Below are positions 8,176-33,696 of a DNA stretch of 64,000 nt, one piece after another. Positions within the stretch are counted from its first letter, which is position 1. The number at the start of each line of letters is the position of its first letter. The DNA is from Chloroflexota bacterium. GTDB taxonomy: Bacteria; Chloroflexota; Dormibacteria; Dormibacterales; Dormibacteraceae. The position numbers and the translations under genes were made by a program. Below the pieces are notes generated by a model. That model saw nothing but the letters and a program-made list of their open reading frames with translations, was not told the origin of the DNA and ran no database searches. The stretch is from positions 124,001 to 188,000 of the forward strand of contig VBFH01000022.1 in NCBI GenBank assembly GCA_005883575.1. The letters run 5' to 3'.

Positions 8176-8706
8176 CTAGACGCCGCTCGGGTTCGCCGGC
8201 ACGGGCGCTGGGAAAGGCGATGCCGCTGTCGCGCCGCCCCGTCTCCTCTCCGACTGCACGAAAACCTGATCGCGGAATTCGCCCGGCCTGGGCAGGTGGT
8301 CGAGGACCTCGGCGCCCTGCGCGCCGGCGGCGTCGACTTCGACACGTCCATAGCCCATCATCCGGCCGAGAAGCGACTGCCTGGTCGTGCAGTCCTGCAC
8401 TCGATCGATCGGGATGATCTTTTCTTGGCGGCTGAAGACCCCGGCTTGGATCGTGATGCGCTGGTCTGTGAGGGTGTAGGTGATCGACCGCCAGCGGATC
8501 CAGACCACGATCAACCAGAGCAGGGCAAGCGCCACCACTCCCAACGTGAGGAACGTCCTGAGCCTCGCGTCCAGGCCCACCAGCGTGAAGTCTGAAACGA
8601 GGACGACGACGAGGAGGACCACGGGAACCACAAGGCTCTTGACGAGGGTGATCCAGTGTGGGTGATCTTTCAAGACGAGGTTTTCGCCGGGAAGGAGCTT
8701 GCTCAT
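8176..8706 (-). CDS. Bacterial PH-domain (bPH2/DUF304) membrane protein
   Basis: A 176-aa protein with two adjacent membrane helices (about 22-42 and 51-72) followed by a bacterial pleckstrin-homology domain. The DUF304 core is ITYTLTDQRITIQAGVFSRQEKIIPIDRVQDCTTRQSLLGRMMGYGRVEV, the pattern seen in YdbS/YdbT proteins. The C-terminal 25 residues are Pro/Ala-rich and probably disordered. Role unknown; the family is tied to the envelope. It sits between the prepilin peptidase and aroK, which is a placement rather than a pathway link. Confidence 0.85.
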   Translation of the reverse strand: MSKLLPGENLVLKDHPHWITLVKSLVVPVVLLVVVLVSDFTLVGLDARLRTFLTLGVVALALLWLIVVWIRWRSITYTLTDQRITIQAGVFSRQEKIIPIDRVQDCTTRQSLLGRMMGYGRVEVDAAGAQGAEVLDHLPRPGEFRDQVFVQSERRRGGATAASPFPAPVPANPSGV

Positions 8707-8722: not shown

Positions 8723-9430
8723 CTACTTGAGCGGGTCCAGCAGCACGATCAGAGCGCCGGCCGCCAGGTAGGGACCGTAGGCAATCGTGCCTTTCATCGA
8801 GCGCCGCCAGACGATGACGCCGATCGAGATCAGCCCGGCCAGGAACACGCCGTAGAACATCGCCGTGAACGTATAGGGCCATCCGAGCAGGAGGCCCATG
8901 AAGAGCGCCAGCTTGACGTCGCCGAAGCCGAGCGCCTCGGCCTTGAAGAGAGCGGACCCGGCCAGCGCGAGAACCAAGAACAGCAGCCCGGCCGCCAATC
9001 CCATTGCGATCCCCGTCCACCACGGCTGCTGCCACAGCCCAAGGCGGCTGCTGACCAGTGGCGAGAGGCTGACCAGGAGCGCCAGCACCATGGATGGGAA
9101 GATCACGCGGTCGAGGATCAGCCGGTGCTCGAAATCGAAAAAGATCACCTGCACCAGGACAAGCCCGAAGAGGCTGCGGAGCACCAGCAGCGGAAACGGC
9201 GTTATCTCGAAGGCGTAGATCGCGAAAACGAGGGCGCACAGAACCGGCGGACCGAAGATTTGCCAGCGCTTGCTTCCGGGCTCGAGACCTTCGAGCCGAG
9301 CGAGCTTGACCGAACCCCATCGCACAGCCCATCCGGCGGCCCCGCCTCCCACCGCCCAGATCGCCGCCAGGGCGTATGGACTCACTAAAGGGGGGTCCCC
9401 GCAGACGCACGGCAAAGCCTCGGCGTCCAC
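8723..9430 (-). CDS. Type IV prepilin peptidase (A24 family, short form)
   Basis: Membrane aspartyl protease that cleaves the leader of type IV/Tad prepilins. The 235-aa product has about 7 hydrophobic helices. Both catalytic Asp motifs are present: IFFDFEHRLILDRVIFP (first Asp with the D...R.I.D pattern) and GFGDVKLALFMG (GxGD). The N-terminal methyltransferase domain with paired CxxC motifs of PilD is missing, as in TadV/CpaA types, so it is the likely processing enzyme for the TadE-like proteins at 29344-30503. GTG start at 9430. Confidence 0.88.
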   Translation of the reverse strand: MDAEALPCVCGDPPLVSPYALAAIWAVGGGAAGWAVRWGSVKLARLEGLEPGSKRWQIFGPPVLCALVFAIYAFEITPFPLLVLRSLFGLVLVQVIFFDFEHRLILDRVIFPSMVLALLVSLSPLVSSRLGLWQQPWWTGIAMGLAAGLLFLVLALAGSALFKAEALGFGDVKLALFMGLLLGWPYTFTAMFYGVFLAGLISIGVIVWRRSMKGTIAYGPYLAAGALIVLLDPLK

Positions 9431-9437
9431 GGGGTTC

Positions 9438-10211
9438 TCATGGCTGGAGAGTTTCCCGCATCGCCTCGAGCGGGGCGGTGCGACCGGTCCAGAGCTGGAA
9501 CGCGATCGCGCCCTGCGACAGCAGCACGCCCCAGCCGTCCGCAGTGCGAAGTCCGAGCGACCGCGCCTTGCGCACGAGTGGCGTCCCGCCCTTGACGTAC
9601 ACGAGGTCGATCACCGCGCCCTCTTTAGGCAGCGCTGCGGGGCGCAGCGGCATCTCCTCACGCCGGCCGAGGGGTGTCGCGTTGACGATCACGTCGGCCG
9701 AACGTGTCAACGACGCGACCGACGGGTCGTCCCAAGCGACGGTCTTGCCGGGTACGTCGACCTCGTCGGGACGTCGCGCGACAAACGTGAGGTGCGCGCC
9801 TTCCAGCGCCTGCGCGGTCGCCCGCGCGGCGCCGCCGGCGCCGAGGATGACCGCGTTCGCGCCGCGAGACTCCACTCCGGCGTCCTCGATGGCGAGACGG
9901 ATCGCCGGGATGTCGGTGTTGAATCCTCCCAGCCGGCCGCCGTCGCCGACGATCGTGTTCACGGCGCGCGCGCGAAGGGCCTCGTCGGCGATGGTGTCGA
10001 GGAATTCCATCACGGTCTGCTTGTAGGGGATGGTGACGTTGGCCCCGGCGACATCCGGCGCCTTCAGCTGTTGGAGCGCAGCGGCAAGCTCCTGCGGCTC
10101 GACGTCGAGCAGCTCATAGCTCCAGTCCATGCCGAGCGCGCGAAACGCTGCGTTGTGCATGACGGGGCTGCTCGAATAAGCGATTCTCTGCCCGAGGAGA
10201 AAGACCTTCAG
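9438..10211 (-). CDS. aroE: Shikimate dehydrogenase (CTG start)
   Basis: NADPH-dependent reduction of 3-dehydroshikimate to shikimate. The expected N-terminus KVFLLGQRIAYSSSPVMHN is present, followed by ANVTIPYKQTVMEFLD (catalytic Lys), NTIVGDGGRLGGFNTD (catalytic Asp), ILGAGGAARA (NADP site) and NATPLG. The codon before Lys is CTG at 10211, forming CTGA with the mltG stop; no ATG/GTG/TTG lies nearby, and the upstream ATG at 10334 would overlap mltG by 127 bases with residues unlike the family. Product about 257 aa. Function certain; CTG start is inference from spacing and family length. Confidence 0.92.
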   Translation of the reverse strand: MKVFLLGQRIAYSSSPVMHNAAFRALGMDWSYELLDVEPQELAAALQQLKAPDVAGANVTIPYKQTVMEFLDTIADEALRARAVNTIVGDGGRLGGFNTDIPAIRLAIEDAGVESRGANAVILGAGGAARATAQALEGAHLTFVARRPDEVDVPGKTVAWDDPSVASLTRSADVIVNATPLGRREEMPLRPAALPKEGAVIDLVYVKGGTPLVRKARSLGLRTADGWGVLLSQGAIAFQLWTGRTAPLEAMRETLQP

Positions 10212-11257
10212 CTGCCGCTCACGCCGTACTTCTTGATGTCGCTGTCGAAATCCGCCTGGTTGGTCTCGAAGTGCGTCGTTCCCTGCTTGTCGGTGAAGTA
10301 GAAGAGATAGTTGGTCACGGGCGGGTTGATGCACGCGGCCAGCGCCGCCTTCCCCGGATTGCTGATGGGCCCCGGCGGCAGTCCCGCATGGATCCGGGTG
10401 TTGTACGGCGAGTCGCGCTTGAGCTCATCGGCGGTCGGCTCGGGCGTCAGCCGTCCAAGGAGGTAGAGCAAAGTTGCATCCACGCCCAGCGGGATGTTCT
10501 GCCTGAGGCGGTTGTAGTAGACGCTGCAGACGTTGCCCCGATCGGTCGCAGTCTTGTTGTTGGCCTCGCGATCGACCATCGAGGCGAGGATCACGATCGA
10601 GCGAATGTCTTCTCTCGGCCGCGCGCTTGTCGACTGCGAGATCTGCGCCTTCCAGTCGGCGGAGAACACTGCCGCAAACTGGTCCAGCTGCGCCTTGACC
10701 AGGCCTTTGGCGCCGGCCGACGGGTCGACTAGATACGTATCCGGGAACAGGTAGCCCTCGTATGGAAAGTCACCGCTCGCCTGGACCGGCAAGAAGTTGT
10801 AACTGCCGGCGAGCGCGGGATCCTTCGCGGCGCTGAGATAGTCGGCTCCGCTGATGGTACCCAGCTTCTTGCTGTCGACCAGCTGTGCCTGGTAACGAAG
10901 AGGAAAGCCTTCCGGGAACGTGATGGTCTTTTCGTCCGGCCGTCCATGCTGCAGCGCCGTGACGATCTGGCTCATGGACATGTTGGTGTTGAGCAGGAAA
11001 GCGCCCGCCTGAAACCTGGGCGCGGCGTCCGTCAGCCGGGTGTAGAGGTCGAAGGCGATCGTGCTGCGGATGAGACGCAGGTCATAGAGGTCGGTTCCGA
11101 TCTGGGACGGGGTCTCACCCGGGTCGACGTGGAACGTCACGCTGTGGCTGGTGGTGGATACGGGCGTGTTCACGTTGAAGTTCCACCAGTCGATCGCACG
11201 CGAGGTCCCAAATCCGAGCAGGGCAAGCACGACTACGAACGCGATCAGGCGCCTCAC
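10208..11257 (-). CDS. mltG: Endolytic murein transglycosylase MltG
   Basis: MltG (YceG) cuts nascent peptidoglycan near the membrane and limits glycan strand length. The 349-aa product has one N-terminal membrane helix (about 4-22), a LysM-like subdomain, and the YceG domain. Hallmarks are FPEGFPLRYQAQLV, FPYEGYLFPDTYLV, IVILASMVDREANN (conserved Glu retained, preceding position Asp) and TPYLYF-like TNYLFYFTDKQGTTHF at the end. GTG start overlaps the DUF1292 stop as GTGA. The stop gives the CTGA junction with aroE. Confidence 0.93.
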   Translation of the reverse strand: MRRLIAFVVVLALLGFGTSRAIDWWNFNVNTPVSTTSHSVTFHVDPGETPSQIGTDLYDLRLIRSTIAFDLYTRLTDAAPRFQAGAFLLNTNMSMSQIVTALQHGRPDEKTITFPEGFPLRYQAQLVDSKKLGTISGADYLSAAKDPALAGSYNFLPVQASGDFPYEGYLFPDTYLVDPSAGAKGLVKAQLDQFAAVFSADWKAQISQSTSARPREDIRSIVILASMVDREANNKTATDRGNVCSVYYNRLRQNIPLGVDATLLYLLGRLTPEPTADELKRDSPYNTRIHAGLPPGPISNPGKAALAACINPPVTNYLFYFTDKQGTTHFETNQADFDSDIKKYGVSGS

Positions 11258-11478
11258 TCGACCCGTTCTTCCTCGAGAGCGCTCATGACGCGGCCGAACT
11301 CCTCACCGTCGACCGTCTCCAACCCCGAAGCCGTTTCGCGCAGCAGCAGCACCCGTTCGGGTTCAGAGACGTCCTCGACCAGGTAGTAGGCGACCCCTTC
11401 GAGGTCGAACGCGTCGTGCAGCGCAAAACGGCGCTCCACGCCGGACTCGTCGACGAGCGTTACCTCTTCTTCAGACAC
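11254..11478 (-). CDS. DUF1292 family protein (YrzB-like)
   Basis: A 74-aa acidic protein. The pattern VTLVDESGVERRFALHDAFDLEGVAYYLVED...VLLLRE is the DUF1292 fold signature, known from B. subtilis YrzB. In Firmicutes the same neighbour order (ruvX, DUF1292, mltG) is conserved, which supports the call. No catalytic residues are evident and no function is known for the family. It overlaps ruvX by 8 bases. Confidence 0.85.
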   Translation of the reverse strand: MSEEEVTLVDESGVERRFALHDAFDLEGVAYYLVEDVSEPERVLLLRETASGLETVDGEEFGRVMSALEEERVE

Positions 11479-11884
11479 GGCGGCTGTCGAGGTGGGACTG
11501 GAGAAGGAGAGCCGCAGCCACGCGGTCTATATTCGCGCGCCGTTTTTCCCGGCGCATCCCTGCCGCCAGCAATGACCTCTCCGCGGCCGCGGTGGTCAGG
11601 CGTTCATCGACCAGCTCGACAGGCAGCCCCGACGCGTGACGAATCGCATCGGCGAGGTCCCGCGCGGCTTTTGCCTCAGGGCCAAACGTGCCGTCCATCC
11701 GGCGCGGCAGCCCGACCACGATCCTCGCCGCTTCCTTGGCCTTCGCCATCGCAGCCAATCGCTCCGCGAGCGTCTCCCGCGGCTCGGCAGGGATCGTGGC
11801 CAGAGGTTGGGCGATCGTGCCGGTGGGATCGCTGACAGCCAGGCCGACTCTCCTCGAACCGGGATCGACGGCCAGCACCCTCAC
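11471..11884 (-). CDS. ruvX: Holliday junction resolvase-like RuvX (YqgF)
   Basis: YqgF/RuvX is an RNase H-fold nuclease implicated in pre-16S rRNA 5'-end processing and perhaps junction resolution. The 137-aa product has VLAVDPGSRRVGLAVSDPTG (first catalytic Asp), IVVGLPRRMDGT, VELVDERLTTAAAERSL and NIDRVAAALLLQSHLD (last catalytic Asp), all standard. It begins 13 bases after the stop of the baseplate-J-like gene and overlaps the DUF1292 gene. Confidence 0.94.
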   Translation of the reverse strand: MRVLAVDPGSRRVGLAVSDPTGTIAQPLATIPAEPRETLAERLAAMAKAKEAARIVVGLPRRMDGTFGPEAKAARDLADAIRHASGLPVELVDERLTTAAAERSLLAAGMRREKRRANIDRVAAALLLQSHLDSRRV

Positions 11885-11897
11885 GCAGCCACTGCGG

Positions 11898-13484
11898 CTA
11901 GTGGGAAGGCGATGGCGACGGCTTCGGCGAGCTTTCCGCTGCAGCCTCGGCCGGAGGCGCGTTGGACTCGACCACGTAGTGCAGCTGGATCCTCCGGTCC
12001 AGAAGCGGCATCAAGGGCAGCGCGATGGGCTGCTCTTTGATCGCGACCGACCGGATCGGGAGCCTCTCCAGGTAGAACCGCGCCTGCTGGACCGGCCGGC
12101 CCACGATCTGGGCGCGGATCTTCTCCTCGTCAAGCCTGGGCGCCACATACGCCGACGCGCTTCCGACGAAGACGAGGTAGCCGCCCTTGGCGGCGCTGAG
12201 CAGGCGGTACTGGACCTGGATCGGGCTTTCTGTCAGCAGCTGCTGGTTGTTGGGCACCCGCTGCGCCAGGTAGGTCTTGTAGGCCTGGACGACGTCCCCG
12301 TCGACGTAGAAATCGCCTTCGGCGCTGACCGTCATCGTGCCTGTGAAGCTCGGTACTTTGTCATTGGGCTGGTGGTCGGTCGTGAACTGCGGCGGGCCAA
12401 AGATCACCGTCTCGCTCAGCTTCTCGCCCTGCTGGGCTCCCGCTGACAGCTCCTGGGCGAGGGCCTGGTGGAGCTCCTGCTCGAGCTGCGCGCGGGCGGC
12501 GTCGAAGTCGGCCACGCTCATCTGCGGCGTCGAGGATGGATCGGTCCCACCACCGGTCGCCTGTGGGTTGGTGACGGTAAAGCAGTCGTAGGGATTCGGG
12601 TCCGACGGCGACCACGAGTTGATGGTGTGATCACCGACGTTGCCGACGGATCCCGGCGTTGTCGCGATCACGTTGGCCGTCGCCGTTTGGCCCCATCCCA
12701 CCGTGATGTCTCCGGAAGACTGAGCGAACTCGATGCCGTTTGTGTTGACGAACCGCGTGCCTCGGAAGCTGATGATGCCGCTCGAGTTCAGGTTCTTCGG
12801 CTTGCCGCAGGCGTTACGAAGCTCGATCGCACCGATTGACGGAGCAAGAGGCACGTTAATGGAGCCCGTGACCTTGAAACCCTGCGAGTTGGATTTCGAG
12901 ACCGACACGGTCCTGACCTTGATCGGGGGCTTGCCCGGCTGTGCCTGGATCTCGACATCCTTCTGTGAAAAGGGCTGCGCCTGGGCCACAAGCGTCACCG
13001 ATGCCGACGGCACGAACACGGCCGCGGCAAAGAGACCGACGAGGATCAGGGTGATCGCTGTCACGGAGAGAAGGAATCGACCCGGCTTGAGCTCGGTCGC
13101 GGTCCTGGTCAGCAATTTGCTGGGCGCGCCGACGCCGACGTGCGTGGTCGCCGCCGCCGGCCTTCGCTGCCACCACCTCCGGAGCGGCGGCGGAACCTCG
13201 GCCTCGGATGGGATGCCCTGGCCCTCCGGACCGACGGCGCCGAACACCGGGAATCCGGTCTCGGAGGCCATCTTCTGGACCGCCGGGTCGTCGCACACTA
13301 CTGTGACCCGTTTGCCCAGACGGGCCGAGTAGTTGCGTAGGAGCTGGAAGTTGAATCGGCTCTGCCCGATGCGCGAGCGCATCGGCAGAACGAGCATCGT
13401 GTCCTCCCCGTGATAGCGGCGGAGGCGCTCGACGAGCTCGGGGATCTCCTCTTCGGTCTCGACGTAAATCTGGTTCGTTGCCAT
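11898..13484 (-). CDS. Membrane-anchored baseplate-J-like protein with cytosolic alpha/beta domain
   Basis: A 528-aa protein I recognise by architecture only. Residues 1-95 form an alpha/beta domain (IYVETEEEIPELVERL..., MLVLPMRSRIGQSRFNFQLL, KRVTVVCDDPAVQKMA). A basic linker (95-135) and one membrane helix (about 137-160) follow. The rest is beta-rich; the stretch around 240-290 (FRGTRFVNTNGIEFA..., TTPGSVGNVGDHTI) resembles the baseplate J/gp47 fold. The last 30 residues are Pro/Ser-rich. There is no phage context. It lies directly downstream of an FtsA/PilM-like ATPase, suggesting a cytosolic partner. Similar proteins occur in Chloroflexi and CPR genomes, function unknown. Confidence 0.7.
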   Translation of the reverse strand: MATNQIYVETEEEIPELVERLRRYHGEDTMLVLPMRSRIGQSRFNFQLLRNYSARLGKRVTVVCDDPAVQKMASETGFPVFGAVGPEGQGIPSEAEVPPPLRRWWQRRPAAATTHVGVGAPSKLLTRTATELKPGRFLLSVTAITLILVGLFAAAVFVPSASVTLVAQAQPFSQKDVEIQAQPGKPPIKVRTVSVSKSNSQGFKVTGSINVPLAPSIGAIELRNACGKPKNLNSSGIISFRGTRFVNTNGIEFAQSSGDITVGWGQTATANVIATTPGSVGNVGDHTINSWSPSDPNPYDCFTVTNPQATGGGTDPSSTPQMSVADFDAARAQLEQELHQALAQELSAGAQQGEKLSETVIFGPPQFTTDHQPNDKVPSFTGTMTVSAEGDFYVDGDVVQAYKTYLAQRVPNNQQLLTESPIQVQYRLLSAAKGGYLVFVGSASAYVAPRLDEEKIRAQIVGRPVQQARFYLERLPIRSVAIKEQPIALPLMPLLDRRIQLHYVVESNAPPAEAAAESSPKPSPSPSH

Positions 13485-13512
13485 GGCGTTTACAGGTCTC
13501 CTGGAGGTCTGG

Positions 13513-14772
13513 TCAAACCTTTATAGCGCTTAGGACCCGTCTCATGACGGTGTTGACCGTGTCGCGCTCCTCGGCTTCAGTTCGCAAAGCGTGGTTGGCG
13601 AGGCCCATCGGGGCGATGTCCTGAGGGCTCACGAGCTGCCCGGTCGAGTCGCTCAGGTTCCGTACGTCGGCGGGTACAAGATGCCTAACGCGGGGCTCGC
13701 GCGGGAACGGAAGGCCCGCCGCCCAGTTGTTCTTCACGATCTCAAGGGTCAGCTCAGGCAGGAGGCTTCCTCCTCCACACAGGTAGATGCTGCTGGGCAG
13801 CCGCTCACCGCGCGAAAGCTCCTTGATGCTCAAGGCGAGGCCTTGCAGGAGCACCTCGGCGTCCGCGGTCAGCAGCTCGGAGACCTGACGGTGCTGGTCC
13901 GCGGACAGCAAGCCCTCCGAATGCCGGAGCTTGCGTGCCTCGGCCTCCTCGTAGCTCAGTCCGAAGGCCAGCGCCAGCCTCCGCGTGAAGGCGCGCCCGC
14001 CGAGATTGAACATCCGCGTCCCCTCCACCCCGCCGTCGCGGATCAAGGCCACGTCGGTCGTGCCGCCACCGACGTCGACGAAGATCCCGCCCTCCGCCCA
14101 GATCTCTTCGTTCGCGCATGCGCGGGCGAGGGCATAGGGCTGCGCCACCGCGGCGGCCAGCTCGAGGTCGAGCTCACGCACGACCGTCTCGATGGCGTCG
14201 ATGTGGGTCATCGGCGCGAAGGTGTTGAAGACCGTGACCTCGAGGTTCTTGCCCGTGAAGCCGACCGGGTTGGTGACCGGGTAGCCGTCCACCCGTACGT
14301 TGGTGATCGCGGAGTGCACAAGGCGCGCCTCGAGCTGGCCGTAGCTCCGCTCCATCTCGAGCAGGTGCTGCGCCTCGCGGAGGGCGCGGCGCTGGACCAT
14401 CTGGAGCATGGTCGACATCTCTCCGGAGCGGACCCGGGACTTCGAGTTCTCCCGCGGGTAGGCGATCGTCGACGAGAAGCCCTTGATCAGCTCGCCGGCG
14501 ATCCCCACCACGACCTGTCCGGGAACCGTCCGGGCCATGTCCTCGGCGGCCTCCAGGGCGCGGTTGCAGCACCTGATCACCGACTCGAGGTCGGCGATCG
14601 CGCCGCCCGACATCGCCGCCGGAGCCTGGGGCTCGCGGCCGACGCCCAGCACCTCGCCGTCGGGGCCCTCGCGGCGGACGACGAGGACCTTGATCAGGTC
14701 GGTGCCGATGTCGAGCACCGTGAAATGGCGGTAGTAGTCGCTGCGCTTGCGCAGGAACTTGAACTTGCTCAC
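13513..14772 (-). CDS. FtsA/PilM-like actin-fold ATPase
   Basis: A 419-aa protein of the FtsA/PilM branch of the actin superfamily. It shows phosphate-1 VLDIGTDLIKVLVV (about 19-32), an SHS2-type insert (GQVVVGIAGELIKGFSST through VTVFNTFAP), phosphate-2 GIFVDVGGGTTDVALI and the adenosine motif IYLCGGGSLLPELT. The last residues, TVMRRVLSAIKV, are amphipathic and could be a membrane anchor as in FtsA. No ftsZ or pilN is adjacent; instead the single-pass baseplate-J-like protein follows. FtsA proper, PilM, or a new subfamily are all possible. GTG start, GTGA overlap with alaS. Confidence 0.8.
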   Translation of the reverse strand: MSKFKFLRKRSDYYRHFTVLDIGTDLIKVLVVRREGPDGEVLGVGREPQAPAAMSGGAIADLESVIRCCNRALEAAEDMARTVPGQVVVGIAGELIKGFSSTIAYPRENSKSRVRSGEMSTMLQMVQRRALREAQHLLEMERSYGQLEARLVHSAITNVRVDGYPVTNPVGFTGKNLEVTVFNTFAPMTHIDAIETVVRELDLELAAAVAQPYALARACANEEIWAEGGIFVDVGGGTTDVALIRDGGVEGTRMFNLGGRAFTRRLALAFGLSYEEAEARKLRHSEGLLSADQHRQVSELLTADAEVLLQGLALSIKELSRGERLPSSIYLCGGGSLLPELTLEIVKNNWAAGLPFPREPRVRHLVPADVRNLSDSTGQLVSPQDIAPMGLANHALRTEAEERDTVNTVMRRVLSAIKV

Positions 14773-17321
14773 GCCAGAGCTTCCTCCAGGCGCTTGAAAG
14801 CTTCGTCCACCGGGACGTTCAGCCTGCCGCTCACCAACTGCGGCCGTCCGCCCCCCGTGCCGAAGAGGTCTTTGAGGCGCGTGGCATCGAACTGCTGCAC
14901 GAGGTCATTGGACACCTTGATGACAAACTTGTTGCCCGCGACAACGGTTACGATGCCCGACTTGACCTTCTCGAGGTAACGATCGGCGTAAGACTTCAGC
15001 TCGGCCTCATCTGAGGCGTCGACCGTCGCGGCCACGTAGTCCACGCGGCCGTGCTTGACCACAACACCGTCGCCTCCGATGGGCTCCCTACGCAGCCTCT
15101 CGCGCTCGCGTTGGGCTTCCTTGAGCTGACCTCGCAGGCTCTGGACCCGCTCGGGCAGCTGCTCGGGGTTGACGTTGAACGACCTCGCCAGGTCGGACAG
15201 CAGATCTCGATCCCGCCGGATGAGCTCGTCCGCTGCCTCGCCTACGACCATGTCGATGCGGCGTAAGCCCGAGCCGATGCTCGATTCGGACACGATGACC
15301 GCGGGGCCTATGTCGGCGGTGTTCTTCACGTGCGTGCCGCCGCACAGCTCGCAGGTCCAGTCGCCGAAGCACACCACACGCACGACGTCGCCGTACTTCT
15401 CCTCGAACAGGTGCATCGCGCCCTTCGCGACCGCCTCCCTGTAGGGCTTCTGGCTTTCGTGAAACGGCAGCGCCTCGCGAATCTTCTCCATCACGCGGCC
15501 GTTCACGCGAGCCAGCTCTTCCCTGTTGATGGCGCGATTGAGCGGGATGTCAAAGGTCGTGTGGTCGGGGCCGACCCACGATCCCTTTTGGGCTACCTGT
15601 TCGCCCAGCGTCTCGCGCAGGGCTTTGTGGAGCAGGTGCGTGGCCGAGTGGTGACGCATGATCTGCCGCCGGCGCTTCTCGTCGACCGCGGCGGTCGCCT
15701 CTTCGCCGAGCAGGATCTCGCCTGTAACGACCGTACCGAGATGCGCGATCGCGCCTTCGGCAGGCTTCTGCGTGTCTTCGACACGGACCATGCCGCTCGG
15801 CGTCTTGATCGTGCCGGTGTCACCGATCTGTCCGCCGGACTCGGCGTAGAAGGGTGTGCGCTCGAGGAAAACTTCGACCTGGTCTCCCTCGCCCGCCGCT
15901 TCGATCGCTGATCCTTCCCGGCGAAGTCCGACGACCTTGCTGTCGGTCGTCATCTCGCGATACCCGGTGAACTCAGATCTGGGCAGGTCTTTCACGGTCT
16001 GCCATCCGCGCGGCAGATCGCGGCGTGAACGCTGTCGCTGAAGCTCCATCTCCGCCCGAAAAGCGTCTTCGTCGACCTGCAGGCCGCGTTCAATCGCCAG
16101 CTCTCGCGTCAGCTCGAGAGGGAAGCCGAATGTGTCGTGCAGCCGGAAGGCATCGGCGCCGGACACCACCTTGCCGCCGCGCGAAGCAACCTTCTCGAAC
16201 TGCTCCATGCCCTCGTCGAGGGTGCGCGCGAAACGCCCGGTCTCGGCGTCGATGGCATCGGTGATGACGCGCTCACGTTCTCGCACCTCGGCGTAGTGGT
16301 CTTTGAAGATCGCGACAGCCTGTTTGGCGCCGGTGGAGAGCTTTCCGCGCATCCCGATGTTTCGACCGTGCAGGGCGGCGCGGCGGATCAGGCGCCGCAG
16401 CACGTAGCCGCGTCCTTCATTGGACGGGACAACTCCATCCGCTATGCAGAAAGTCATCGCGCGAACGTGGTCGGCGATGATCTTTTCTGACAGCGCCGCT
16501 GGCTTGGTGCTTTGCTCCCGCACGAGATCGACAAGCGGGGCCAGGACGTCGGTCTCAAAAACGTTGTCCTTGCCCTGCAGGACAAAGCCGATACGTTCCA
16601 AACCCATCCCGGTGTCGATGGCCGGGCACGCAAGGGGCACGAGCGCTTCGTCGGCGATGCCTCGCTGGATGGCTTCTGCTGTCGAAGGCTGATCTGACAG
16701 ATCCGCTCGCTGGTCGTACTGCGGGAACACGAGATTCCAGATCTCCGTGAAGCGGGTGCAGTGATCCGGATAACAGTCAGGCTGTCCGCATCCGGCCTCG
16801 CGGCCGCGGTCCCACCAGATCTCCGAGTCGGGACCGCACGGCCCGCGGCCAAGACCCCACCAGTTGGTACCGTCCCTCGTCACGTGGTCGCCCGCGATGG
16901 CGGTCGCCGTCGTCCAGATCTCGAACGCCTCGTCGTCCGACGGATGAACCGTGGCGCGAAGCCGGTCGACCGGCATGCCGAATCCCGTTGTCACCAACTC
17001 CCAGGCCAGTGGGATCGCGGTCTCCTTGAAGTAGTCGCCGGTCGGGGCGAAGTTCCCGAGCATCTCGAAGAAGGTGAGGTGGCGCTCGGTCTTCCCCACC
17101 TCTTCGATGTCGCCGGTACGCAGACATTTCTGAGAGCTCGCCAGCCGGGGCGCGGGAGGTTGTCCCAAACCCAGGTAGTAGGGTTTGAGCGGCTGCATTC
17201 CAGCCGAGATGAAGAGAGTGCTCGGGTCGCCGTGCGGTACAAGCGGCGCGCTCGGCAGGACCAGATGCTCCCGGCTCGCGAAATGCTCTAGAAAGCGTCT
17301 GCGGATCTCATTCCCGGTCAC
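14769..17321 (-). CDS. alaS: Alanyl-tRNA synthetase
   Basis: Charges tRNA-Ala and edits mischarged Ser/Gly. The 850-aa product has the class II core (residues 1-240: FLEHFASREHLVLPSAPLVP...FISAGMQPLKPYYLG), GRGYVLRRLIRRA, the editing domain with HHSATHLLHKAL and CELCGGTHVKNT metal-binding motifs, a coiled-coil linker, and the C-Ala domain ending in TGGGRPQLVSG. Slightly shorter than the usual ~870. Ends in a GTGA overlap with the FtsA-like gene. pdxH lies 15 bases upstream. Confidence 0.97.
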   Translation of the reverse strand: MTGNEIRRRFLEHFASREHLVLPSAPLVPHGDPSTLFISAGMQPLKPYYLGLGQPPAPRLASSQKCLRTGDIEEVGKTERHLTFFEMLGNFAPTGDYFKETAIPLAWELVTTGFGMPVDRLRATVHPSDDEAFEIWTTATAIAGDHVTRDGTNWWGLGRGPCGPDSEIWWDRGREAGCGQPDCYPDHCTRFTEIWNLVFPQYDQRADLSDQPSTAEAIQRGIADEALVPLACPAIDTGMGLERIGFVLQGKDNVFETDVLAPLVDLVREQSTKPAALSEKIIADHVRAMTFCIADGVVPSNEGRGYVLRRLIRRAALHGRNIGMRGKLSTGAKQAVAIFKDHYAEVRERERVITDAIDAETGRFARTLDEGMEQFEKVASRGGKVVSGADAFRLHDTFGFPLELTRELAIERGLQVDEDAFRAEMELQRQRSRRDLPRGWQTVKDLPRSEFTGYREMTTDSKVVGLRREGSAIEAAGEGDQVEVFLERTPFYAESGGQIGDTGTIKTPSGMVRVEDTQKPAEGAIAHLGTVVTGEILLGEEATAAVDEKRRRQIMRHHSATHLLHKALRETLGEQVAQKGSWVGPDHTTFDIPLNRAINREELARVNGRVMEKIREALPFHESQKPYREAVAKGAMHLFEEKYGDVVRVVCFGDWTCELCGGTHVKNTADIGPAVIVSESSIGSGLRRIDMVVGEAADELIRRDRDLLSDLARSFNVNPEQLPERVQSLRGQLKEAQRERERLRREPIGGDGVVVKHGRVDYVAATVDASDEAELKSYADRYLEKVKSGIVTVVAGNKFVIKVSNDLVQQFDATRLKDLFGTGGGRPQLVSGRLNVPVDEAFKRLEEALA

Positions 17322-17953: not shown

Positions 17954-18736
17954 TCAGCCGGCGCTTTCTTGCGGCACGTACTTCCGCAGCTGCTCGAGCG
18001 CGGCGCGCTGGAGGCGCGAGACGTGCATCTGGCTGATGCCGAGACGGCGCGCAATCTCGGACTGGGACATCTGCTCGTAAAACCTCATCGCCATGATCGC
18101 GCGCTCACGAGGCGTGAGATGCTCCATCGCGCGGTCGAGGACGTCGCGCATCTCCACGCGCTCCAGCTCGGGATCCGAGCCCCCGATCTGCTCGGCCACC
18201 GAGCGGTTGTCCTGGCCGTCGGCCGCCGCGACCGGCTGATCGAGCGACACCGGCACGTACGCGGGGCCCATCTCCATCGCCTCCGTGACGTCGTCCGGGG
18301 AGACGCCGAGCCGCTCCGCAAGCTCGCCCACCGTGGGTTCTCGCCCGAGCTCGTTCTTCATCTGCTCGTTGACCCGCACCACGGATTGGTGCAGCTCCTG
18401 CAGCCGCCGCGGGAATCGGATGGCGGTGCCCTTGTCGCGGAAGTACCTCTTGATCTCGCCCGCAACCGTCAGGGTGGCGAACGTTGTGAACTCGTAGCCC
18501 AGGTCGGGGTCGAATCGCTCGATCGCCTTGATCAGGCCGAGGTAGCCGACTTGGACGATGTCGTCCAGCGGTTCGCCGCGGTTCTGGAACTTCCGTGCGA
18601 GGAAGTAGACGAAGTCGTGATAGGAGTCGACGAGCTGGGCGCGGATGCGGTCGCGCTCGGCCTGGTCTGTGCTTTCCTTGTAGCGGCGATGTAGCGCCCG
18701 CAGCTCATCGCGGGGAAGCCGCGCCGAACTGGCCAC
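17954..18736 (-). CDS. SigB/SigF-class RNA polymerase sigma factor
   Basis: A 260-aa group 3 sigma factor. Region 2 (YHDFVYFLARKFQNRGEPLDDIVQVGYLGLIKAIERFDP...FTTFATLTVAGEIKRYFRDK) matches SigB/SigF closely. Region 3 is FPRRLQELHQSVVRV...GREPTVGELAERLGVSPDDV, and region 4 is LTPRERAIMAMRFYEQMSQSEIARRLGISQMHVSRLQRAALEQLR. In Actinobacteria and Firmicutes such factors are held by RsbW/SpoIIAB anti-sigmas. Here the gene just upstream encodes an RsbW-like protein with a degenerate N-box. GTG start. Confidence 0.93.
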   Translation of the reverse strand: MASSARLPRDELRALHRRYKESTDQAERDRIRAQLVDSYHDFVYFLARKFQNRGEPLDDIVQVGYLGLIKAIERFDPDLGYEFTTFATLTVAGEIKRYFRDKGTAIRFPRRLQELHQSVVRVNEQMKNELGREPTVGELAERLGVSPDDVTEAMEMGPAYVPVSLDQPVAAADGQDNRSVAEQIGGSDPELERVEMRDVLDRAMEHLTPRERAIMAMRFYEQMSQSEIARRLGISQMHVSRLQRAALEQLRKYVPQESAG

Positions 18737-18765: not shown

Positions 18766-19191
18766 TCAGCCTGCCAGGTGCTTGACCATCCGGAAGCGGA
18801 CGTGTCCCGTGCGCGGCTCGATGCTCGGTCGAAAGTCATCGACGAAGCAGCGGATCATCTCGTAGGCGAGCCGCTGCAGCTCGGGATCGACGTGAGTCGC
18901 GTGCGGATGCAGGGGCATCGGCAACGCCGCGCCCGTCGGCATCAGGTCGACGTCGACGACGAGCGCCCGGTTGGTGGCGAAGTATGTGAGCTTCAGGTCC
19001 GCTGGTGTGCCCAGGTCCTCGGCGGCGCCGATGGCGCTGTCGCAGGCCTGGGTCAGAGCGATCGCCAGTTCGTCCAGGTCCATCAAGCTCAGACCGAGCT
19101 GACCTCCCAGCGCCGTCGCCACGCGTTTGGCCACTGGAATGAACTCCGCCGATGCCGGGATCTTGAGCTCCGCCAGGTTTCGTTTCGCCAT
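18766..19191 (-). CDS. RsbW-like ATP-binding-fold protein, N-box degenerate (probable anti-sigma)
   Basis: A 141-aa protein with the layout of RsbW/SpoIIAB GHKL kinases: IPASAEFIPVAKRVATALGGQLGLSLMDLDELAIALTQACDSAI. In active RsbW the N-box reads EACTN; here it is QACDS (48-52), so both the Glu and the Mg-binding Asn are replaced. The DxGxG motif after it is absent (LVVDVDLMPTGAALP). A later PELQRLAYEMIRCFVDDF resembles the family C-terminal helix. Placed 29 bases ahead of the sigma gene, it probably binds that sigma but may not phosphorylate an anti-anti-sigma. No RsbV or RsbU is nearby. Confidence 0.7.
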   Translation of the reverse strand: MAKRNLAELKIPASAEFIPVAKRVATALGGQLGLSLMDLDELAIALTQACDSAIGAAEDLGTPADLKLTYFATNRALVVDVDLMPTGAALPMPLHPHATHVDPELQRLAYEMIRCFVDDFRPSIEPRTGHVRFRMVKHLAG

Positions 19192-24068: not shown

Positions 24069-25678
24069 AGGCCCGCCGTCTCTCGATTGGTGCGATAACC
24101 GGTCGCCGCGTTCAACGACTCCGTCAGGTCCTCCATCCGGATGGGCTTGCTCATGTAGTCGTCGTACCCGGCGCGGAGACACCGCTCCTGATCCCCAGGT
24201 CCAGCCATCGCCGTCAGCGCGATGAGCCGCGGCCGGTTGCCTCGCGGCCAGCGCCGGCAGATGGCCTCTGCGGCTGCGAGCCCGTCCATCTCGGGCATCA
24301 GCACGTCCATGAGCACGGCGTCGTAGGGCTGCTGCGCGACGGCGGCCACCGCCTCACGGCCGTTGGACACGACGTCGACGCTGTGCCCGAGCTTGGTGAC
24401 CAATCGCTTGAGGAGGTTCTGGTTCAGCGCGTTGTCATCGGCGATCAGAACTCGAAGCGCGCCCGGCTGCACATCTTGCACCGCCTGCGGCTGGGCCCCG
24501 CGGCCGCCGACCTGGATCATCACGTCATGCAGGGTGCGCGGCGGCACGGGTTTGGTGAGCGTCGCCTGGATGACGCCGCTGTCGGCAGCCGTGGCCTCCG
24601 CCGGTCCTGGCGTGGACGAAGAGATGAGGACGATCGGCATCTGGTCGGCCCGCCGTGCCGCTCGAAGCGCCGTCGAGATCTCGAGGCCGTCGATCGCCGG
24701 CTGGCGGTGCTCGACTAGCGCGATGTCGAAGGGACGCCCGACCTGGACCGCGCCCAGCGCCTCCTCTGGCGTGGCCGACGTCGCGTTGGCGCCCCACTGC
24801 TCGACCTGCAGCGCCAGGACACGCTTCTCGGTCGGATCCGCGGCGACGACCAGCACTCGCATCCCCTCGAGGGTCAGCAGCGTCGTCGCGATTCCGCCCG
24901 GCAGCGCTTCGGCCAGGATCGTGAAGCCGAAGGTCGTGCCCGCATCCGGACCCGCCTCGACCCCGCCCTGCTCGACGCGCAGCTCGCCGTCCATCATCTC
25001 GACGAGGTGCTTGGTCGTGCGGAGGCTCAGCACGGAGAGGCGGTCGCCCGGCTCGAGACGGTCGTAAGGACCCGTGACTCCGTCCAGCCCGCCGCGAAGA
25101 ATCCGGGCCGGCACGCCACGGCCGGTGTCGCGGATTCTGAAGCTCAACGCCACCAGCCCACCGCGATCCTCCGACGTCAGCTCGATGCCGATGCCCCCTC
25201 GGTATGTGCGATCCACGGCGCCGTGCAGCAGCGTCAGCAGGATCTGCTCGAGCCGGCGCGAGTCGCCGATCGCGACATTCGGCACATCCGGCGCCGCGCT
25301 GAAAGACATGTCTAGGCCTTTGGAGCCCGCCGCTTCGGACAAGAGGGCGAGGCAGCTCTCGACGGTAGAGCGCACGTCGAAGGGATGGAGCGCGAGCTCG
25401 AACTCGCCGGTCCCGATGGTGGCCGCGTCGAGCACGTCATCGACGATCCTCGCCACCTGCTCGGCGCCGGCCTCGACGATCGCGGCGAGCTCCCGCTCCT
25501 CACTCGTCTCCGCGCCCGTGGAGAGAAGGCCCGCCGCGCCCACGACCGCGTTGAGCTGGTTGCGCAGCTGGTGCCCGATGTCAGCGAGCAGCTCGGAGTC
25601 GACCTCGATCGTGCGGTGATGACCGTCCGTCTGGCCGTCGGGCGGCGGCGTCGGAGTTACGTCCTGGAACTCGCCCAT
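24065..25678 (-). CDS. Hybrid histidine-kinase-like protein with degenerate ATP site and two receiver domains
   Basis: 537 aa in four parts. A HisKA dimer domain has the phospho-His at His36 (DIGHQLRNQLNAVVG). The HATPase region (about 100-255) keeps DTGRG (184-188) but the N-box reads LTLLHGAVDRTYRG without Asn, and the G2 box GLGL is lost (RLSVLSLRTTKHLVEMMDG). REC1 (273-390) has Glu323 in place of the phospho-Asp. REC2 (408-530) is canonical: IADDN, Asp458 in VLMDVLMPEMDG, LIALTAM and SKP. No membrane helix. It may be a pseudokinase scaffold or phosphotransfer node. It starts one base into the tadA stop, so it is tied to the Tad operon. Confidence 0.85.
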   Translation of the reverse strand: MGEFQDVTPTPPPDGQTDGHHRTIEVDSELLADIGHQLRNQLNAVVGAAGLLSTGAETSEERELAAIVEAGAEQVARIVDDVLDAATIGTGEFELALHPFDVRSTVESCLALLSEAAGSKGLDMSFSAAPDVPNVAIGDSRRLEQILLTLLHGAVDRTYRGGIGIELTSEDRGGLVALSFRIRDTGRGVPARILRGGLDGVTGPYDRLEPGDRLSVLSLRTTKHLVEMMDGELRVEQGGVEAGPDAGTTFGFTILAEALPGGIATTLLTLEGMRVLVVAADPTEKRVLALQVEQWGANATSATPEEALGAVQVGRPFDIALVEHRQPAIDGLEISTALRAARRADQMPIVLISSSTPGPAEATAADSGVIQATLTKPVPPRTLHDVMIQVGGRGAQPQAVQDVQPGALRVLIADDNALNQNLLKRLVTKLGHSVDVVSNGREAVAAVAQQPYDAVLMDVLMPEMDGLAAAEAICRRWPRGNRPRLIALTAMAGPGDQERCLRAGYDDYMSKPIRMEDLTESLNAATGYRTNRETAGL

Positions 25679-27186
25679 CAGTAGAGCTGCTCCCCCGGTG
25701 GCTGGTTGTTGGGTTCGAACATGGACGGCCCGAGCTCCATCCCATTGGCCTTGAAGTGATCCTGGAACGTGGAGAGCGTTCCGGTCGCCGTGTGGTAGCC
25801 GACCGCGCGGCCGTCAGGTGTGACTGCGATCTGGCGAAACGCGAACAGCTCGTTGAGACCGATGTCGCCGTCGCGCAGGCCGAAAACTTCCGCGACGCTC
25901 ACGATCTTGCGCGCGCCGCCCCGCAGTCTCTCGGTCTGGACGATGACGTTGATGGCCGACGCTATCTGGCCGCGGATCGCGCGCGATGGCAACTCTGTGC
26001 CCGCGAGGAGCACCAGGGTCTCGAGGCGGTTGATCGCGTCGCGCGGGTTGTTGGCATGCACAGTGCTCATCGAGCCGTCGTGACCGGTGTTCATCGCCTG
26101 CAGCATGTCGAGCGCTTCGCCGCCGCGAACCTCGCCGACTATGATCCTGTCCGGACGCATGCGCAGTGCGTTGCGAACGAGGTCGCGGATCGTGATCTGG
26201 CCGCGGCCCTCGACGTTGGCCGGTTTCGATTCCAGGCTGATCACGTGCACCTGGCGCAGGCGAAGCTCGGCAGCGTCTTCGCAGGTGACGATGCGCTCGG
26301 TGGCGGGGATGAACCCGGACAGGACGTTCAGCAGCGTGGTCTTGCCCGAGCCCGTGCCGCCGGAGACGATGATGTTGAGGCGCGTCTTGACCGCCGCGTC
26401 GAGGTACTCGAGGATCGCTTCGCTCGAGCCACCTGTCGTGACGATGCGTTCAGGAGTGAGAACCTCGCGGCCGAACTTCCGGATCGTGAGGCAAGGGCCG
26501 TAGATGGCGACGGGCGGAATCACCACATTCACTCGCGAGCCGTCCTTCAACCGGGCGTCGCACATGGGCTCGGACTCGTCGACCCGCCGGCCGATCGTCG
26601 AGACGATGCGGTCGATCACGCGTCGCAAGCTCGCCTCATCCTCGAACGCAAGGTTGGTCAGCTCGATCCGGCCTCGCCGCTCGACGAAGATCTGCTCGGG
26701 CCTGTTGACCATGATCTCGGTGATCTCGGGGTCGCGCAGGGGCGCCTCCAGCGGCCCGAGCCCAATGACCTCGTCGAAGAGGATCTCGACCAGACGCTCG
26801 CGGTCCGCGGCCGTGACGAGCGCGGCGGGCGGCTTGGCCCGAAAGTGGTCTTCGGTCAGCTGCATCAAAAGTCTGCGGATGCCGGCCCGGTTGCTGATGT
26901 CGATCGCGGCGGCATGCCGCCTGAGCAGCTCGGCGTGGATCTCCGCCTTCGCCGCCGCGAGCCCGGGGCTCAGGACGGCCGGCGCCTCCACGGCGCGGGG
27001 GCTGGTGTCGATCACCGGCGCCATCGGGCTCGTGCCGTCACGCGGCACCGCGCGGCGCTCGATCGGGGCGATCGTCGGCGTGCCGTCGGCGGGCGTAACG
27101 GGCTCGGCGGGTGGAGGTGCGGGTGCCGTCGGGGCGGCCACGGGCGTCTGCTGGTAGCGGCGATCGAAGCGCTCGGAAAGCTTCAT
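25678..27186 (-). CDS. tadA: Tad/CpaF secretion ATPase
   Basis: Hexameric ATPase that drives Tad (Flp) pilus assembly. The 502-aa product has a Pro/Ala-rich tail at 1-75, an N-terminal helical domain, and the T2SSE ATPase core: VNRPEQIFVERRGRIEL, Walker A SGGTGSGKT (275-283), Asp box with TCEDAAELRL, GEVRGGEALDMLQAMNTGHDGSMSTVHANNP (Walker B and His box). ATG 27186 chosen; it makes an ATGA overlap with the HEAT-repeat gene upstream, while the longer frame to 27351 is a shadow. Partners TadB and TadC lie at 33712-35576 on the other strand. Confidence 0.95.
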   Translation of the reverse strand: MKLSERFDRRYQQTPVAAPTAPAPPPAEPVTPADGTPTIAPIERRAVPRDGTSPMAPVIDTSPRAVEAPAVLSPGLAAAKAEIHAELLRRHAAAIDISNRAGIRRLLMQLTEDHFRAKPPAALVTAADRERLVEILFDEVIGLGPLEAPLRDPEITEIMVNRPEQIFVERRGRIELTNLAFEDEASLRRVIDRIVSTIGRRVDESEPMCDARLKDGSRVNVVIPPVAIYGPCLTIRKFGREVLTPERIVTTGGSSEAILEYLDAAVKTRLNIIVSGGTGSGKTTLLNVLSGFIPATERIVTCEDAAELRLRQVHVISLESKPANVEGRGQITIRDLVRNALRMRPDRIIVGEVRGGEALDMLQAMNTGHDGSMSTVHANNPRDAINRLETLVLLAGTELPSRAIRGQIASAINVIVQTERLRGGARKIVSVAEVFGLRDGDIGLNELFAFRQIAVTPDGRAVGYHTATGTLSTFQDHFKANGMELGPSMFEPNNQPPGEQLY

Positions 27187-28019
27187 CTCGCCACCGCGCG
27201 CCTGACCAACCGGCGGTGGGCCCTGTCCGCCGCCTTCTTGACCGGCGCGTCGGGATCCGAGTCGGCCAGCCGCTTGAGTCCGTCGGCCGCAGCGCGGTCG
27301 CCGATCGTCGCCAGCGACTTGCACGCGGCCATTCGCACCTGCCTCGGCCACCTTCGGTCGTGGGCGATGCCCAGCAGCGGCGACACCCGGAGCACGTCGC
27401 GGCGCAGGCCGCAGGCGAGCACGGTCGCGACGGCCGTGCGCTCGCTGGCCGGCTGGCGCATCAGGGCTTCGATGTCGACGTCGGTGGCGGCGCGCGATAG
27501 GGCGATGGCAAGGCGATAAAGAGGTATCCCGTCGGCCGCCGCGATCAGCATATCGACCGCTCGCCGGCCGCCGAGCTGGGAGAGCGACCGTATGGCGGCC
27601 TCGCGGACACGCTGGTTGGAATCCGCCACCAGATCTCCTATCCAGATGAACGACTCGGTCAGCCGGGCCGCGGAACAGATCCGCGCGGCCGCGGCCCGTG
27701 TGACCGGGCTCGGGCTGGCCAACGAGTTCACCAACTCCTCTTGCAGCCCGGAGCGGCGGAACAGCTCGTGGACCATCCAGTGGCCCATGACGCCGACCCC
27801 GGGGCGGTCGAGCGCGGCCCTGAGCACGTTGGCGACGGCGAGGGGCTCGGCCAGCAGCTCGTCGGCGCTGACGTTAAGAACGGCGGCCCGCTCACCCTCG
27901 AGCGCAGTTTTAACCACCCGCTCAACGCGCCCCGTGACGCGAGATCGGCTGGCCGGACGGGGAACCGCCTGCGTCACCGGCCGGGTATTTGAGCCATTGC
28001 TGCGAAGCTGGGAGTCCAT
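27183..28019 (-). CDS. HEAT-repeat protein upstream of tadA
   Basis: A 278-aa alpha-helical repeat protein. From about residue 80 onward it shows helical pairs typical of HEAT/PBS-lyase repeats: SPVTRAAAARICSAARL, NQRVREAAIRSLSQLGGRRAVDMLI, RQVRMAACKSLATIGDRAAADGLKRLADSDPDAPVKKAADRA. The first 40 residues are basic and probably disordered. It starts the leftward Tad operon (HEAT protein, tadA, kinase-like) and is divergent from the cpaE-like gene with only 30 bases between starts. A scaffolding or partner-binding role is inferred; function is not known. Confidence 0.78.
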   Translation of the reverse strand: MDSQLRSNGSNTRPVTQAVPRPASRSRVTGRVERVVKTALEGERAAVLNVSADELLAEPLAVANVLRAALDRPGVGVMGHWMVHELFRRSGLQEELVNSLASPSPVTRAAAARICSAARLTESFIWIGDLVADSNQRVREAAIRSLSQLGGRRAVDMLIAAADGIPLYRLAIALSRAATDVDIEALMRQPASERTAVATVLACGLRRDVLRVSPLLGIAHDRRWPRQVRMAACKSLATIGDRAAADGLKRLADSDPDAPVKKAADRAHRRLVRRAVAR

Positions 28020-29838: not shown

Positions 29839-30503
29839 ATCTCTTGGGCCACAAGCAGCTCGGGCAGGCTCCTCGCCGGTCGCGTGGAGGGCGACTTCAA
29901 AGCGCGCAAGCGCTGGTCGAGTTTGCGCTGATCGCGCCCGTGCTCTTCCTGCTGATCGGGGCGACGGTCGACCTCGGCCGCGGGCTGCTGATCTACACCA
30001 TGCTTCAAGGCGCATCGCGTGACATGGCGCGCCAGGCGGTGCTCGGCTACTACAGCGGCTCGAACACGCTGCCCCCAACGTGCACCACCCTCTCCACACC
30101 GTGTTCGCTCGGTGCGCTGACCAACGGTGCGCACCAGCTCGACCCGTTGGGGATGTCGGTCGTGTACCAGGATTCCACCGGGATCAGCGCACCTCCCGCC
30201 TATGGCGCCTACGTGGCGAACGCCAATCCGCTGCAGCCGGGCACGATCACCCTGTCCGGTGTGATCAACGCGAGCACGGTCTACGTGTTCATCTACGAGC
30301 TCGACGCGACTCCGGGTAATCCGAATCCGCGCTGGAGCTGCCCGACGTGCGCCGGCGTCAACGGCGCTGCTGTGCGCACGTCAGGACACCAGCTCGTCGT
30401 CGTCGACATGAAGCTTCAGTGGAAGCCCGTGCTCAACACCCTGTTGGGCATCCCGAGCGCGATCACGTTCGACTCGCAATCGGTCGAGCGGCTCGAGTTC
30501 TGA
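29835..30503 (+). CDS. TadE-like pseudopilin 2
   Basis: A 222-aa TadE-family protein: basic N-terminus, then SAQALVEFALIAPVLFLLIGATVDLGRGLLIYTMLQGASRDMARQAV, the same helix signature with Glu. The exported part carries cysteines (TCTTLSTPCSLG, WSCPTCAG). GTG at 29835 is chosen because it overlaps the TGA of the first TadE gene as GTGA; the frame is open upstream but that part is a shadow of the first gene. The stop shares one base with the following ATG (TGATG). Confidence 0.86.
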   Translation: MNLLGHKQLGQAPRRSRGGRLQSAQALVEFALIAPVLFLLIGATVDLGRGLLIYTMLQGASRDMARQAVLGYYSGSNTLPPTCTTLSTPCSLGALTNGAHQLDPLGMSVVYQDSTGISAPPAYGAYVANANPLQPGTITLSGVINASTVYVFIYELDATPGNPNPRWSCPTCAGVNGAAVRTSGHQLVVVDMKLQWKPVLNTLLGIPSAITFDSQSVERLEF

Positions 30504-32901: not shown

Positions 32902-33696
32902 GTGTCAATAGCCACCTCCGCCCTGGCCCGGCCTCGCCGCGGGCGCCTGTACATCGTGGTCGGCGCAGTTCTTGCCGTGCTGGCTTTCGCCCTGGCGGCC
33001 GGGATCGCGAGCCTGCCCCTCATCCAGGGCACGACCACAGGGACTAGGGTTGTCGTGGCCAGCCACGACATCAAGGCGAGGACCGTCATCACGGCCTCCG
33101 ATCTCACCATCGCCAACTTCAACCCGGCACCGCCGGAAGCATTCATCGCTGTCAAAGACGTCGCCGGAAAGGGAGCTCGGGTGGACCTCCCGGCCGGCCA
33201 GCCCATCACCGCCAACCTGGTGGCCCCGTCCGGTGACCTTCTAAGCAGCAGCGACGTCGCCTACCTGCCGATCCCCAAAGGGTGGATCGCCGTCACCGTT
33301 CCGACCGGTGAACAGGTCGGCGTCGGCGGCTACGTCCAGATCGGAGACAGGATCACCATGCTCGCCACGATCAACACCGCGGCCTTCGGGCAGAATCCCG
33401 GCAGAAACGTGGTCCTCACGGTCTTTCGCGACATCGACGTCCTGCGCGTCGGGCCGGCGAACGGCGCGACCTCGACCGGCTCGGTTACCAGCAGCCTCAC
33501 CGTGCTCATGACCGGGTGCGATTCCGAGTTTCTGTTCTGGCTGCTCAACAACGCGTCGATGAAGTACGAGCTCGAGTCCTACACCGACTATCAGGGCCTC
33601 CCGACCCAACCTGATACCAAGTGTCCCAGCGTGTCATCGGCGACGGGAGTCGGCCCCAAAGACGTCGACGGACGCTGGCACTTCACGACCCATTAG
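32902..33696 (+). CDS. cpaB: CpaB/RcpC-like Tad assembly protein (SAF domain)
   Basis: A 264-aa protein with a basic N-terminus, one membrane helix (about 17-40) and an SAF/CpaB domain: TRVVVASHDIKARTVITASDLTIANF and LPAGQPITANLVAP. The C-terminal part (PKGWIAVTVPTGEQVGVGGYVQIGDRITMLATI, NVVLTVFRDIDVLRVG) is the RcpC/CpaB portion. In diderms it meets the secretin; no secretin gene is here, consistent with a monoderm. GTG start at 32902, after a 77-base gap that may hold a promoter. Confidence 0.88.
   Translation: MSIATSALARPRRGRLYIVVGAVLAVLAFALAAGIASLPLIQGTTTGTRVVVASHDIKARTVITASDLTIANFNPAPPEAFIAVKDVAGKGARVDLPAGQPITANLVAPSGDLLSSSDVAYLPIPKGWIAVTVPTGEQVGVGGYVQIGDRITMLATINTAAFGQNPGRNVVLTVFRDIDVLRVGPANGATSTGSVTSSLTVLMTGCDSEFLFWLLNNASMKYELESYTDYQGLPTQPDTKCPSVSSATGVGPKDVDGRWHFTTH

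Follow-up and report, generated by a model that had tools for sequence, protein, structure and literature searches.

The locus raises the question of what an FtsA/PilM-like actin-fold ATPase does beside a single-pass membrane protein with a phage baseplate-like exterior, and whether the two act together. In the window, which is the whole 64,000-nucleotide stretch of DNA that was analysed, both genes lie on the reverse strand: an open reading frame of 419 amino acids for the ATPase (13513-14772) and one of 528 amino acids for the bitopic baseplate-J-like protein, here called J (11898-13484). The coordinates leave a gap of 28 bases between them (13485-13512), as the original prediction had stated. 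The ATPase gene begins with GTG and overlaps the stop codon of alaS by 4 bases. On Pfam matches and synteny, the conserved neighbours, also on the reverse strand, are alaS upstream (14769-17321) and, downstream, ruvX (yqgF; 11471-11884) and mltG (YceG; 10208-11257), the last encoding a lytic transglycosylase. No ftsZ, pilN or phage gene adjoins the pair in the window, in agreement with what had first been noticed. Our best explanation, to which we give a probability of about 0.6 as a whole, is that the ATPase and J form one machine, in which a membrane-bound ATPase docks on J, organises an outer J scaffold and serves cell-wall work, and that the FtsA/PilM side of the actin superfamily has in this ATPase a third branch, beside FtsA and PilM.

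The ATPase was matched by the Pfam families FtsA (4.9e-13), PilM_2 (1.4e-8) and, weakly, SHS2_FTSA (0.003), and its nucleotide motifs are intact (LDIGT, DVGGGTTD and GGG). An SHS2, or FtsA 1C-type, insert was placed at about residues 84-180 (14233-14523, reverse strand) from the SHS2_FTSA match, the secondary structure of an ortholog model and the structural alignment with FtsA. Structural comparison was carried out with a model of the ortholog at locus L115, which is 92% identical to the window ATPase. This model aligned with FtsA (7q6f_A) over residues 15-399 with a Z of 39.7 (354 residues at 2.5 A) and with PilM at Z 31, FtsA being the closest fold; the actin fold with an SHS2 insert that had been proposed from the sequence is thus borne out. 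The amphipathic C-terminus proposed with it (TVMRRVLSAIKV; 13516-13560, reverse strand) remains plausible as a basic helix and possible membrane anchor, as the basic-hydrophobic end is conserved across the ATPase family and the hydrophobic moment is moderate, but the signal is not strong in the window protein alone, where a moment of 0.57 was reached by 10% of shuffles; it is stronger in some relatives.

Against the FtsA model TIGR01174 the ATPase scored 112.6 bits (range 109-113), under the cut-off of 175.85, and against the PilM model TIGR01175 it scored 35.9 bits, under the cut-off of 133. The canonical FtsA of the same Ca. Dormibacteria genome scored 397.9 bits and is encoded beside ftsZ in a mur/fts cluster on another contig, and a canonical FtsA over the cut-off was found in each of 10 pair-carrying genomes tested. 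In a tree of 34 pair ATPases, 14 FtsA, 6 MreB and 3 PilM proteins (L080, L085 and L090 were excluded for their very long branches), the pair ATPases formed a single clade (100/99), with FtsA, MreB and PilM each separate. The three PilMs formed their own clade (100/100), and their position as sister to the pair clade was weak (78/49). Identification of the ATPase as canonical FtsA was rejected on its TIGR01174 score, the separate ftsA-ftsZ and the separate clade, so that clustering with an FtsA next to ftsZ, which would have refuted the original prediction, did not occur. Membership in the type IV pilus PilM family was likewise rejected, on the TIGR01175 score and because 15 of 16 pair-carrying genomes have no PilM that reaches the cut-off. 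The C35 match of the genome search was considered as a PilM and rejected, being an MreB-like gene beside murA.

The model of J (53 rows, mean pLDDT 85) comprises an alpha/beta domain at residues 5-84, a disordered linker, a single membrane helix at residues 137-156 (13017-13076, reverse strand) and an ectodomain, which is the order of cytosolic, membrane and external parts originally described. Residues 1-90 are the proposed ATPase docking module (13215-13484, reverse strand). Within the ectodomain, residues 211-317 (12534-12854, reverse strand) matched the phiCD508 baseplate protein 9g8s_A with a Z of 14.2 at 1.8 A over 93 residues, and further barrel matches, seen also with Foldseek, were to diffocin (Z 12.6), the phage Mu baseplate (12.5) and a Streptomyces injection system (12.3). 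A C-terminal domain at residues ~450-505 (11970-12137, reverse strand) was recognised from its conserved pattern LP.SV.I...P..LP..PL..SRI, and two-domain baseplate matches reach residue 504. The sequence match to Baseplate_J (PF04865) is weak (0.0045; 16.8 bits, below the gathering score of 21.1); a fused CPR relative scored 32.6 bits against this family, and J matched a PHROG baseplate wedge family at 1.7e-5. None of the NCBIfam models names J. Judged by the predicted structure, the ectodomain carries a true baseplate-J barrel, weak by sequence and clear by fold, and the check for such a fold came out in favour of the first reading. The cytosolic domain matched several alpha/beta folds at Z 5-6, the STAS protein RsbS coming first at Z 5.8 and tied with unrelated folds. 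A STAS identity was appealing on visual inspection, but this level is common and too low for an assignment, and a profile comparison of the domain with one STAS protein of the genome gave no match.

The order alaS-ATPase-J-ruvX-mltG is conserved in Dormibacteria, where it is followed by aroE, a prepilin peptidase, a bPH protein, aroK, efp, asp23 and nusB, and distant Chloroflexota keep the same five genes (loci L074-L077, L079, L086, L091 and L093). Named relatives in the records are Ca. Dormiibacterota and Chloroflexi MAGs, mostly from soil; it has been proposed that the Ca. Dormiibacterota class belongs in one phylum with other Chloroflexota (PMC10608941), as it does in the genome grouping used here. 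In a profile scan with patterns from Dormibacteria, J lay directly after the ATPase in nearly all of the best 79 named loci, including those of Peregrinibacteria, Gracilibacteria and Berkelbacteria; these 79 were Chloroflexota/Dormibacteria, CPR, or unassigned or probably mislabelled MAGs. The gap between the two genes is short in nearly all named relatives, mostly 2-160 bases. The ATPase is the slowest-evolving protein of the operon in the genus and family, with identities mostly of 91-98%, while those of J are about 60-82%. Some early sequence matches carried TGA marks, and no recoding is claimed for them. Since conservation of the two genes, and of their order, extends across classes and reaches another phylum, the pairing is more than chance, and the failure of conservation that would have spoken against it was not seen.

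Several other genes were observed around the locus. In the window, a SigB-type sigma factor gene and an RsbW-like kinase gene (17954-18736 and 18766-19191, reverse strand) lie upstream of alaS with pdxH between, the position of the former being kept in almost all relatives. The downstream aro cluster contains genes for a type IV prepilin peptidase (8723-9430, reverse strand) and a bacterial PH-domain membrane protein (8176-8706, reverse strand), whose positions are kept across the class. A Tad/Flp-type pilus region of mixed orientation, with genes for a GspE-type ATPase and TadE/G-like and RcpC/CpaB-like proteins, is found ~12-20 kb from the pair (25678-27351, 30347-32824 and 32902-33696).

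J was found in 210 of 301 Chloroflexota genomes. Strict ATPase orthologs, defined as those scoring above about 379 bits, together with fragments of such proteins, were found in 81 of the 301, and all 81 also have J; the remaining 129 J genomes have no strict ortholog. That the pair might also occur in CPR had been guessed correctly: 230 of 240 CPR genomes (96% of the sample) have J, and 110 of 240 have the ATPase (E under 1e-60). Where both were listed, the genes are adjacent in 83 of 89 CPR genomes, with the ATPase first and a median gap of 57 bases. In CPR, the ATPase accompanies a J that has the cytosolic domain in 84 of 102 genomes and a J that lacks it in 5 of 46; these counts are uncorrected for shared ancestry, and phyla beyond Chloroflexota and CPR were outside the sampling. 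Because many lineages have J and no ATPase, the ATPase was either a later addition to a J-based system or has been lost from it. Among CPR loci, L191-L204 and L206 have a J that keeps its cytosolic domain with no family ATPase adjoining, and in L191 alaS and J are separated by a gene for a cupin-type glucose-6-phosphate isomerase (L191:4102-4905). Ktedonobacteria-like genomes (family f19), L086 and L087 among them, each encode as many as four J-type proteins, of which some have about 900 amino acids and lie away from the pair locus.

Contact between the two proteins is supported by two indirect lines of evidence. The ATPase and the J domain of L115, of the same family as the window pair, were modelled in one chain by reading through the stop codon (75 rows, 15 of them naturally paired), giving a pTM of 0.82 and a J-domain pLDDT of 84-89. 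With the J domain unplaced, a pTM of about 0.73-0.79 would be expected even for a near-perfect ATPase. The model suggests a defined ATPase-J interface and is not proof of one, as neither PAE nor coordinates were available.

The other line comes from natural fusions, observed at 12 CPR loci as a single protein of 710-795 amino acids with an N-terminal domain of ~250 residues, a long linker, a membrane helix and a J ectodomain. A profile of the fused N-terminal part matched the ATPase of the pair (97.1%, 8e-11, 230 columns) and a divergent group of paired ATPases (97.5%), with no match to FtsA (3.2%), MreB (0.1%) or the cytosolic domain of J (0.4%). The fused actin domain spans the ATPase and is degenerate: the nucleotide motifs are absent, the SHS2 region is missing or shortened, and this domain stands in place of the cytosolic domain of J, which the fused proteins lack. 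In most of the divergent paired ATPases, too, one nucleotide motif or both are gone. Read from the sequences, this loss of motifs and of the domain in divergent pairs and fusions forms a graded series, from an active ATPase with a J bearing a docking domain, through a degenerate ATPase with a J of weak domain, to a fused pseudo-ATPase-J without the domain. Though indirect, the series speaks more strongly than any other single finding for an ATPase that acts on J from the cytosolic side, with the cytosolic domain as its docking module. As a Rosetta-stone link the fusions, together with the conserved pairing, make it almost certain that the two proteins act jointly at the envelope. At one locus (L211) the fusion gene lies between alaS and a sortase-mltG stretch, and the sortase gene (L211:5875-6531) overlaps its end, ahead of mltG.

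An association with peptidoglycan was observed in the distribution of J, which was present in 203 of 259 Chloroflexota genomes with murG as against 7 of 42 without it (n=301), the other 35 murG-less genomes lacking J as well. murG was found in 80 of the 81 genomes that carry the ATPase, and the genomes with J and no murG are mostly incomplete MAGs. Those lacking both include several single-contig genomes of 1.4-1.9 Mb that fit Dehalococcoidia, an identity inferred here; Dehalococcoidia have no peptidoglycan (PMC10608941). Wall genes also lie near the pair: mltG is its standing neighbour, mreB and mreC are downstream in L161, and ddl is upstream in L162. From these observations we infer that the role of the pair is tied to peptidoglycan.

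In the machine that we propose, the ATPase would lie under the membrane, probably held by its C-terminal helix, and would dock onto the ~90-residue cytosolic domain of J; membrane binding is inferred, and docking has the indirect support given above. Nucleotide-dependent assembly of the ATPase could then gather J, and the baseplate-type barrels of the gathered J might form an oligomeric scaffold outside the membrane, polymerisation and oligomerisation being inferences as well. Such a machine may serve peptidoglycan-related envelope work, whether insertion, remodelling or termination, perhaps with MltG, although this function is again inferred. The plan would be analogous to that of FtsA with bitopic division proteins and of PilM with PilN. 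Its observed basis is the folds, the conserved pairing and order, the separate paralogy, the natural fusions and the tie to murG-bearing genomes. Against a single machine stands the occurrence of J without the ATPase in many Chloroflexota and, in the CPR loci L191-L204, even with the cytosolic domain, so J can work without the ATPase and the domain may not be a docking site only. The operon context is mixed, because alaS and ruvX are not wall genes.

A narrower form of this explanation, in which the ATPase is an FtsA paralog working with FtsZ or MreB and J is a bitopic partner in the divisome or elongasome, cannot be excluded, though we consider it unlikely. FtsA is the closest fold, mltG adjoins the pair, mreB and mreC follow it in L161, and the pair appears to be present in Ktedonobacteria (family f19; identity inferred), for which a lack of mreBCD has been reported (PMC10608941); yet every pair genome tested has a canonical FtsA, and the pair, a clade of its own, was not seen beside ftsZ. 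More doubtful still is an alignment complex of a type IV pilus or related secretion system, with the ATPase as PilM and J as a highly modified PilN/PilO. The PilM-like fold (Z 31), the shared plan, the prepilin peptidase in the same gene cluster (8723-9430) and the Tad-type genes at 25-34 kb would fit it, but the score against the PilM model falls far short (35.9 bits against 133), J has a folded domain instead of a short PilN tail, and J tracks murG. Moreover, one CPR genome (G399) encodes, in addition to the pair, two real PilMs, of which one is followed by a classical PilN (MIQVNLLPEE; L268). As separate PilMs coexist with the pair there and none passed the cut-off in the other 15 of 16 genomes, the pair is not a pilus module.

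The remaining readings deny a joint machine. alaS, ruvX and mltG are neighbours of long standing in many bacteria and J is also found without the ATPase, as would be expected if the two genes merely shared a conserved translation/wall operon; this is very improbable, given that the pair is kept in L162, L164 and L169, where alaS, ruvX and mltG were not found beside it within the fetched stretch, that the ATPase never occurs without J (n=81), and that fusion loci recur in CPR. That J is left over from a phage tail or contractile injection system, and that the neighbouring ATPase has nothing to do with it, is scarcely credible despite the true baseplate-J fold, as no other tail gene was found among the neighbours scanned, J has a membrane helix and a conserved cytosolic domain instead of a tail context, and its family occurs in 230 of 240 CPR genomes. 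The vertical, class-wide synteny already contradicts a phage remnant, which was rejected on this ground.

A bolder form of the single-machine explanation, for which the odds are somewhat against us, is that a third FtsA-superfamily membrane machine was already present in the ancestor that Chloroflexota and CPR share, that a filament of the actin-fold protein arranges J into a baseplate-like assembly, either spanning the cytoplasmic membrane or outside it, and so controls wall growth, and that part of CPR reduced the pair to a single pseudo-ATPase-J. Two membrane actins are known in this branch, FtsA and PilM; the pair ATPase would bring the number to three, its partner having the fold of a phage baseplate protein. 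No description of the pair was found in the open-access literature, so this absence is weak evidence. As J occurs in 96% of sampled CPR and most Chloroflexota, it may be among the commoner undescribed bacterial envelope proteins. Recent trees place CPR and Chloroflexota as sisters (PMC8890751), a grouping for which the shared, partly syntenic pair would be an independent character. The pair is testable in cultured CPR with genetics.

Compared with known systems, the pair ATPase resembles FtsA in its actin fold with an SHS2 insert, intact nucleotide motifs, basic hydrophobic C-terminal end and bitopic partners, and differs in falling under the TIGR01174 cut-off, in forming its own clade and in having J as its partner, with ftsA-ftsZ elsewhere in the genome. 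The elongasome of MreB with MreC/RodZ also joins an actin-like protein to a bitopic partner among wall-related neighbours, whereas MreB lacks the SHS2 insert, forms a separate clade and coexists with the pair. With the Baseplate_J/Mu gp47 wedge (PF04865, PHROG 6) J shares the beta-barrel fold at Z 12-14; in contrast, it is chromosomal, conserved and bitopic, with a cytosolic domain and no tail genes. PilM and PilN of type IVa pili likewise combine, from adjacent genes, an actin-fold protein with the cytosolic part of a single-pass membrane protein, but PilN has a short INLLP-type N-terminal motif where J has a folded cytosolic domain of ~90 residues and a baseplate-J ectodomain, and the pair ATPase is followed by J, ruvX and mltG rather than lying in a pilN/pilO pilus operon. 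By this comparison, the PilM/PilN-like or FtsA-based envelope machine of the original prediction holds as to its plan, which appears to be the same, although the pair is neither the PilM/PilN nor the FtsA system proper.
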